Of a stretch of DNA of 32,156 nucleotides, positions 31,736-32,156 are shown piece after piece (positions within the stretch are counted from its first letter, which is position 1; each line of letters opens with the position of its first letter). A program made the translations under genes and the position numbers. Below the pieces are notes generated by a model, which worked only from the letters and a program-made list of their open reading frames with translations, made no database searches and was not told the DNA's origin. Source of the stretch: Alphaproteobacteria bacterium (GTDB taxonomy: Bacteria; Pseudomonadota; Alphaproteobacteria; RF32; CAG-239); NCBI GenBank assembly GCA_017445475.1, contig JAFSUB010000008.1, positions 1-32,156 of the forward strand, written 5' to 3'.

Positions 31736-31822
31736 GCGCTTGTGGCGGAACAGGTAGACGCTGCAGACTTAAAATCTGTTGGGAGCAATCCCGTGCCGGT
31801 TCGATTCCGGCCTAGCGCACCA
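31736..31822 (+). tRNA. tRNA-Leu (anticodon TAA)
   Basis: The 87-base class II tRNA folds with the acceptor GCGCTTG paired to CTAGCGC (one T-T mismatch). It has a GGCGGAACAGGTAGACGC D-arm, an anticodon loop CTTAAAA with anticodon TAA at 31770-31772, and a long variable arm TGGGAGCAATCCCG. The T-arm is CCGGTTCGATTCCGG and CCA is encoded in the gene. It decodes UUA and UUG. A strong terminator starts immediately after it. Confidence 0.95.
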
Positions 31823-31859
31823 ATAAAAAAAGAGGGGGTTTATACCCTCTTTTTTTATT
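31822..31859 (+). terminator. Terminator after tRNA-Leu
   Basis: AATAAAAAAAGAGGG (31822-31836) pairs perfectly over 15 bases with CCCTCTTTTTTTATT (31845-31859) around an eight-base loop, with the T run within the 3' arm. It begins at the last base of the tRNA. Confidence 0.85.
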
Positions 31860-31964
31860 GGTATGTTAGTATCGGAAGCGAACCGAGGTTCGGAATCGAA
31901 GTTTTGCCGGATTTATTCGGCAAAAGCTGAGATGAGCGAGCATTGCAAAGCGGTGTCGAGCTCC

Positions 31965-31982
31965 TTCCGGCCTAGCGCACCA
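31965..31982 (+). repeat. Duplicate of the tRNA-Leu 3' end (att-like)
   Basis: TTCCGGCCTAGCGCACCA at 31965-31982 is an exact 18-base copy of the tRNA-Leu 3' end at 31805-31822. Copy-to-copy distance is 160 bases. Integrases acting on tRNA 3' ends leave precisely this kind of direct repeat. The intervening DNA carries the first terminator, CGAAC/GTTCG (about 31879-31893) and TTTTGCCG/CGGCAAAA (about 31902-31925) inverted repeats, and no gene. A second terminator follows at 31988-32015. Confidence 0.65.
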
Positions 31983-31987
31983 TTTTT

Positions 31988-32015
31988 AAAAACCGTCCTT
32001 TTGGGGGCGGTTTTT
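31988..32015 (+). terminator. Second terminator past the tRNA 3'-end copy
   Basis: AAAAACCG (31988-31995) pairs with CGGTTTTT (32008-32015), with further TCC/GGG pairing inside. Its distance from the second CCA (6 bases) is what one expects of an original tRNA terminator displaced by an insertion. Confidence 0.75.
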
Positions 32016-32027
32016 GTATGAATTGTC

Positions 32028-32066
32028 ATTCCTTGACCTGCGCGGCGCGTCAGGTCATCAAGGAAT
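32028..32066. repeat. Intergenic palindromic repeat element
   Basis: ATTCCTTGACCTG (32028-32040) and CAGGTCATCAAGGAAT (32051-32066) are imperfect inverted arms (one two-base bulge) around CGCGGCGCGT. It carries the TGTCATTC start also seen in the left-edge cluster. The remainder to 32156 contains no gene that I can support. Confidence 0.6.
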
Positions 32067-32156
32067 CTGATCTTTGCGTAGCGCTTATTTTTTTTAATTC
32101 GAAGATGCTCTGACCAAATCTAGCGATTTGGAGGCATGACATTTTATTTTTTTGCA

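Follow-up and report, generated by a model that had tools for sequence, protein, structure and literature searches.

Short non-coding inserts with host-matched flanks behind tRNA genes of an alphaproteobacterium and its relatives

The tRNA-Leu locus

The window analysed here, a stretch of 32,156 nucleotides that forms contig C22 of a 1.33-Mb alphaproteobacterial genome (G000), carries near its right-hand end a tRNA-Leu(UAA) gene whose 3′ tail is repeated a little further downstream. The features of the locus, with tRNA positions given as nt, are as follows.

31736-31822, + strand: tRNA-Leu(UAA), intact and with its CCA end, the host gene of the element (ARAGORN, tRNA-Leu(taa); Rfam RF00005, 55.1 bits)
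31805-31822, + strand: tail copy 1 (tRNA nt 59-76), within the functional tRNA (exact 18-nt repeat)
31823-31858, + strand: T1, a symmetrical terminator hairpin of A-tract, GC stem and T-tract, whose palindrome reaches into the CCA (sequence and fold)
31858-31884, + strand: IR, in which the acceptor 3′ strand and T-arm of the tRNA are copied in inverted, degenerate form, TTGGTATGTTAGTATCGGAAGCGAACC against TTGGTGCGCTAGGCCGGAATCGAACC (reverse-strand self match, 31797-31858)
31885-31892, + strand: a tight turn and a sense T-arm stub, GAGGTTCG, the T-stem 5′ strand to nt 57 (P2 hairpin with the end of the IR; fold)
31893-31964, + strand: class A core, an AUC-GA-AG..CU-GA-GAU helix and a second hairpin (homologous cores in relatives; fold)
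31965-31982, + strand: tail copy 2, the displaced copy (DR), tRNA nt 59-76 with CCA (exact repeat)
31983-32016, + strand: T2, the tRNA gene's original terminator (similar to the one that immediately follows the unoccupied tRNA-Leu of G013, locus L030)

A preliminary description of this DNA reported an 18-base duplication of the tRNA-Leu 3′ end around a 142-base insert, with a second terminator behind it, and we find just this arrangement at 31805-31822 and 31965-31982. The 18-mer TTCCGGCCTAGCGCACCA occurs exactly twice in the window; the two copies agree at 18/18 nt, are preceded by unlike bases (A and C, respectively), and enclose 142 nt (31823-31964). By chance, an exact 18-mer repeat within ~150 nt would be expected with a probability of order 1e-9. 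The same description spoke of inverted repeats within the insert, and these are present, but they are something more specific: a degenerate inverted copy of the host tRNA at 31858-31884, together with a sense T-arm stub (GGTTCG, 31887-31892). The class A core has tRNA nt 57 on its one side and, on the other, nt 59 of the second tail copy. The host-matched inverted copy and the stub had been missed, as had the common cores and the family-wide spread described below.

The stem of T1 includes the CCA of the tRNA (CCAATAAAAAAAGAGGG..CCCTCTTTTTTTATTGG). An automatic terminator scan of the window listed neither T1 nor T2; T1 was missed because its T run sits inside the stem. The region from 31823 to 31982 is predicted to fold with -69.5 kcal/mol (z = -7.0, equalled by 0/200 shuffles), and for the part beyond T1 z is -4.7 (tRNA strand) or -2.8 (opposite strand). 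In searches with Rfam 15 of this locus and 16 related loci, tRNA matches alone scored above the gathering score; sub-threshold matches (mir-627, STnc430) were put down to AU-rich hairpins or to the tRNA. As the preliminary description had proposed, we looked for the same insert elsewhere in G000 and found it to be single-copy. The other match was the reverse strand of the insert's own left half, which matches itself because the insert holds an inverted copy of the tRNA 3′ end.

Two other features of the window can be mentioned here. At 32023-32145 lies a second dispersed, palindrome-like repeat (TTGTCATTCCTTGACCTGCGCGGCGCGTCAGGTCATCAAGGAATCT..GGCATGACATTTT), and a similar sequence follows the tRNA-Gln element at locus L011. 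Between 3352 and 17340 there is a prophage-like run of open reading frames, unrelated to the tRNA-Leu site, with large terminase-, portal-, capsid-, tail-fibre- and lysozyme-like products as judged from their translations alone.

A family of elements matched to their host tRNAs

Elements of the same construction stand behind other tRNA genes. Downstream of the tRNA come T1, the IR, a tight turn, a sense stub of the T-arm that runs to nt 57 (GGTTCG), the core, the DR, and T2, the DR being a copy of the tRNA tail that begins at nt 58 or 59 and ends with the CCA. Since the ends of the core are flanked by the nt 57 stub and the nt 58/59 tail, the core lies in the T-loop of what is otherwise a second, incomplete 3′ half of the tRNA. 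The anatomy is clearest at tRNA-Asn of genome G015, which reads ctgatttgaacagatgacc-gat-ggtcatctgttcg, core, AATCAGATAGTCGGAGCCA. Across the family the inserts are 130-250 nt long and non-coding. A T1-type terminator is commoner at occupied tRNAs (26/37) than at empty ones (29/80; Fisher p = 7e-4), and at tRNA-Glu T1 is unlike the original terminator, which remains downstream; we judge T1 to be carried by the element.

The two parts of the inverted copy are unequally kept: the T-arm (nt 49-56) is well preserved, whereas the acceptor part is ~60% identical, despite an exact direct copy. Long perfect palindromes around T1 may be selected against, which could account for the decay of the acceptor part. 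In a sample of 307 loci, 14 tRNAs lack a good direct copy but have an inverted T-arm that is near-perfect, a hint that the inverted copy has its own role. Wobble changes in the inverted copy showed no asymmetry of the sort that RNA pairing would leave (109 vs 90).

Within G000, 10/38 tRNAs have an exact copy of their own tail of at least 12 nt within 450 nt, and in nine of these it is 18-24 nt long. The copied tail is always that of the tRNA concerned, and the direct and inverted scores place the host tRNA first or nearly so among the 38. About 18/38 tRNAs have at least one inverted or direct copy, with none at the His, Pro, Trp, Asn, Val-tac and most Leu tRNAs. When the same tRNA was checked in relatives, genomes of the same genus proved to have homologous inserts at tRNA-Leu and also behind Ser, Lys, Arg, Gln, Glu and Ala tRNAs. 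In five genomes from three genera, there were 6-10 exact copies per genome among ~30 tRNAs, and the occupancy of a given tRNA varied between species. A larger sample of 294 tRNA loci, which is enriched because many loci came in through core matches (the G000 count is unbiased), contains 88 loci, from 29 isoacceptors, whose tail is copied exactly over 16 nt or more; 54/88 copies are exactly 19 nt long (nt 58-76). Identity of the direct repeat is bimodal, with 19/19 at 79/307 tRNAs of the family and its relatives. Among 22 tRNA loci of other families, nearly all of them tRNA-Leu, no tail copies were found.

Three recurring classes of core (A, B and C) could be recognised, and the junction with the tRNA tail is specific to the class: the DR starts at nt 59 in class A, at nt 58 in class B and mostly at nt 56 in class C. 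Homologues of the window's class A core stand behind Ser, Lys, Arg, Gln, Glu and Leu tRNAs in relatives. Class B cores form a three-way junction with GAAAG, CGGUC and GAUGAG. Over 108 distinct copies of class B, 97.5% of cells are paired and both sides have changed in 9/13 pairs (0/500 shuffles); this covariation was counted for class B alone, the window copy belonging to class A, where the alignment is uneven. One-sided wobbles in class B fit the tRNA strand only in 15 cases and the other strand only in 6, with one invariant G-U pair set aside. Class C consists of a long A/U hairpin followed by a second hairpin, with apparent compensatory changes, and its cores occur in both orientations between tRNA flanks. 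At L132, L154, L163 and L169 the class C core is inverted between tRNA-matched flanks, as if flipped by recombination between IR and DR. Near-identical cores lie behind the Ser and Gly tRNAs of one genome with terminators and tails that are specific to each tRNA, and tRNA-Leu itself carries class A in G000, G003 and G008 and class B in G006. Two known structures were considered and rejected. A hammerhead ribozyme was suggested for class B by GAAA, GUC and GAUGAG at a three-way junction, but the U in CUGAUGA covaries within a stem and there is no Rfam match; for integron attC sites, comparison by eye gave no core match.

A model of class B finds matches in 138/153 genomes of the order, with at most 20 copies each, and in 15/17 genera. 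Outside the order it matched 3 of ~285 other alphaproteobacteria, one of them showing this anatomy at tRNA-Glu. Class B elements are present in G338 (L238) and G340 (L237), two alphaproteobacteria of other families, and those of G338 stand in tandem at tRNA-Glu with exact 19-nt tails; their presence suggests either transfer or an older origin. In an independent scan of named genomes, a class B pattern matched uncultured alphaproteobacterial assemblies, mostly from rumen and gut. Here 66/87 matches had a tRNA on the same strand no more than 600 nt upstream, and 13 of the others touched a contig edge; the set covers 21 isoacceptors, and the exact tails are 19 nt long in 29/41. Three matches, in Clostridia, Comamonadaceae and Arthrobacter, were discarded as chance. 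The pattern had no match in viral contigs, and a phage or viral source of the insert was set aside, the matches being limited to phage tRNA-Leu genes.

Contigs often end inside or beside these elements (L060, L064, L077, L080 and others), so our counts are lower bounds. This also has a practical side, in that several contigs end in the repeats and the second tails resemble tRNA fragments. A near-identical copy of the tRNA-Leu element of G008 was found at L012 (G008:C34:1432-1578), running from inside T1 to past T2 with no adjoining tRNA; it is either a moved copy or an assembly chimera.

The point of insertion can be read from tRNA-Glu(UUC) of two genomes, G087 and G088, whose upstream flanks are 87% identical. 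G087 presents the orthologous empty site, CCA|ATCGCAACACCCTCG, while in G088 three different elements lie between the CCA and ATTGCAACACCCTCG; put another way, the CCA of G087 is followed by ATCGCAACACCCTCGATTTTC, and in G088 ATTGCAACACCCTCGATTTTT comes after the three elements. From this comparison, insertion is exact between the CCA and the original terminator. As the tandem arrays show, the site is used repeatedly. The arrays are polarised: in 25 of them, the tail copy nearest the tRNA is the better match in 14, the worse in 0 and tied in 11, and shuffled tails gave no arrays. The best reading of this polarity is that each new element enters at the tRNA and pushes its predecessors outward; alternatively, the nearest tail copy could be preferentially converted by the tRNA.

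Probable insertion at the T-loop and alternative explanations

On balance, we think it probable that 31823-31982 is one copy of a family of non-coding elements of 130-250 nt, each insertion of which would split the tRNA at the T-loop and provide it with a new tail and terminator. The tRNA would be parted in the T-loop, between nt 57/58 and 58/59, and kept intact by the new tail (nt 58-76) and the symmetrical terminator T1 brought by the element, while the old tail would be shifted downstream to form the direct repeat beside the old terminator T2. Between the tails would then lie the inverted copy of the tRNA 3′ half, the T-arm stub, and the folded core that is common to elements at other tRNAs. 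Later copies would enter beside the tRNA and displace earlier ones outward, giving tandem arrays. We infer that strand exchange takes place in the T-loop and that the displaced copy is the old tail; a recombinase would presumably act, supplied in trans or by the host, and the folded core on the tRNA strand may be its recognition structure. Two suggestions of the preliminary description, integration at the tRNA 3′ end and a minimal non-autonomous element with its own terminator, are supported by the exact tail duplications at 29 isoacceptors, by the orthologous empty site, and by the fact that almost all genomes of the family have such elements at many of their tRNAs.

Several observations fit this model poorly. 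No recombinase is linked to the elements. The genomes have a few Pfam integrases (tyrosine recombinases) each, including some of XerC/XerD size, and certain genomes seem to have little else; no dedicated integrase is shared between them, and the 130-250-nt inserts contain no gene. The IS110 recombinase (DEDD, PF01548) was found in 0/8 genomes, with control genomes positive, Cas1 (PF01867) in 1/8 and reverse transcriptase (PF00078) in 1/6. The lone reverse transcriptase match among these six related genomes lies in G000 (C19:77517-78122), in an open frame of 407 aa. A site-specific integrase normally needs identity between the attP and attB cores (26 bases in mycobacteriophage Ms6; PMC1762012), which leaves one core with flanks for 29 tRNAs unexplained, and an integrase gives no reason for the added inverted copy. 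Nor does the model account for the decay of that copy to ~60% identity in its acceptor part next to an exact direct copy, or for the 14 tRNAs that have a near-perfect inverted T-arm and no good direct copy, and neither excision nor a circle has been seen.

Some of these difficulties would be removed if the core alone moved, as RNA or single-stranded DNA, and the remainder of each element were copied from its target, a mechanism that we regard as rather unlikely. The IR, turn, stub and DR would be made on the spot in two rounds of snap-back (copy-back) synthesis that use the target tRNA as template, the terminator hairpin providing the first turn. Such copying would explain both the made-to-measure flanks at 29 isoacceptors around common cores and the order sense, T1 palindrome, antisense, turn, sense. 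It also agrees with the finding that the nearest neighbour of a core comes from the same genome more often than expected by chance (8 vs 1.5 expected, 0/1000 permutations); however, nearest neighbours also tend to be at the same isoacceptor (16 vs 3.2 expected), as would follow from descent within one tRNA. The enzyme needed was not found, the reverse transcriptase being present in 1/6 genomes, and freshly copied flanks sit poorly with an acceptor part of the IR that has decayed where the DR is exact, unless the selection against palindromes considered above is the cause. More generally, we hold as a tentative possibility, somewhat short of an even chance, that the family represents a novel type of genetic parasite or repeat, in which a folded, non-coding core travels from one tRNA gene to another, its ends being rebuilt each time from the target tRNA. 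If the inverted copy, T-arm stub and 19-nt tail are indeed rebuilt from the target, one element would fit nearly every tRNA without damaging it. To our knowledge, no bacterial mobile element builds its ends from its target like this.

The match between flanks and host might instead be maintained by selection for pairing, the insert being a cis-acting regulatory RNA (a T-box-like sensor or a tRNA-like 3′ processing signal) with the core as its sensing or protein-binding domain. The conserved fold that favours the tRNA strand would suit this idea, as would an inverted T-arm that is kept better than the acceptor part and at times outlasts the direct copy. We nevertheless find it improbable: close species differ in occupancy at the same tRNA and many tRNAs are empty, core classes swap at one and the same tRNA (A and B at tRNA-Leu in G000, G003, G008 and G006, as given above), class C cores are met with in either orientation, the arrays in which tails accumulate are polarised, and T1 ends transcription of the tRNA ahead of the element.

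Genomic islands are classically recognised by a duplicated tRNA 3′ end that starts at the T-loop (PMC9897764), and the preliminary description had offered the scar of an excised island as one reading, in which the insert would be a scar or att remnant of an ordinary tRNA-integrated island that has lost its genes. This is very unlikely given similar 130-250-nt inserts at 29 isoacceptors, near-alike at unrelated tRNAs, with tRNA-specific inverted copies and conserved, covarying cores (compensatory changes being established for class B). The one empty-site comparison moreover shows three small inserts and nothing more, and no long version was met with in searches for tails within 0.9 kb. Finally, a decayed tandem duplication of the tRNA gene, which the preliminary description had named as the finding that would overturn integration, can be practically dismissed: although true tandem tRNA genes exist at a few loci (Val-gac and Pro-ggg in G015), the 88 inserts contain no tRNA 5′ half above shuffled controls (mean score 12.6 vs 13.0 for shuffles; 10 vs 12 for the window insert), and the inverted copy and common cores would be left unexplained.

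Relation to known systems

Of the sites at which bacterial mobile DNA docks, tRNA genes are the best known, and the rule there is one integrase, one tRNA, and one core. Here, inserts too small for a gene sit behind many different tRNAs in a single genome and are spread over most of the family, with the tRNAs kept intact. We take them to be tRNA-docking mobile DNA, with a real chance that they are a new kind altogether. A literature search, mostly outside subscription journals, found no description of the family, which is apparently undescribed. If confirmed, the family would preserve a chronological record of insertions behind each tRNA, would be new among structured RNAs or DNAs and missing from Rfam, and would serve as a model for studying how the ends of an element come to match any target.

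The 18-nt or 19-nt stretch from CCA to T-loop, accompanied by a complementary copy, recalls tRNA-primed or tRNA-tagged retroelements: retroviruses have an 18-nt primer site for a tRNA 3′ end, and mitochondrial retroplasmids have tRNA-like CCA ends. This is a resemblance only: the present elements have no coding capacity, and a reverse transcriptase, as retrons, group II introns and DGRs would require, was found in 1/6 genomes. Among Cas1 systems, casposons, which use tRNA genes, and CRISPR arrays resemble our elements in their polarised growth at a fixed leader-like site, with the target duplicated at each insertion; here, however, Cas1 was found in 1/8 genomes, there are no terminal inverted repeats, and the inserts are homologous rather than random spacers. 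IS110/IS1111 elements with their bridge RNA likewise combine a structured RNA with target-matching stretches, but the eight genomes searched have no IS110 recombinase. Like MITEs and REPINs, the elements are short, non-coding, structured, repeated and presumably mobilised in trans. Those repeats have fixed terminal inverted repeats common to all copies and are dispersed between genes, whereas our elements have flanks that change with the target tRNA, are nearly confined to tRNA 3′ ends, and have a repeat length set by tRNA position.

Islands and mobilisable elements in tRNA and tmRNA genes with a crossover in the T-loop, such as the islands at ssrA of Dehalococcoides (20-bp repeat, T-loop site; PMC3146451) and the phage Ms6 (PMC1762012), share the insertion in or near the T-loop, the restored gene, the downstream copy of 18-21 nt of the gene's 3′ end, and the accretion of several elements in tandem. 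The direct repeat of the tRNA 3′ end, restored tRNA and exact empty site that are usual for tRNA islands and IMEs are all found here. In contrast to such islands, the present elements are 130-250 nt long, free of genes and without a linked integrase. And where an island has an att core for one tRNA, here the same core class appears at 21-29 isoacceptors with host-specific tails, and each element holds an inverted copy and a T-arm stub of its own host tRNA.
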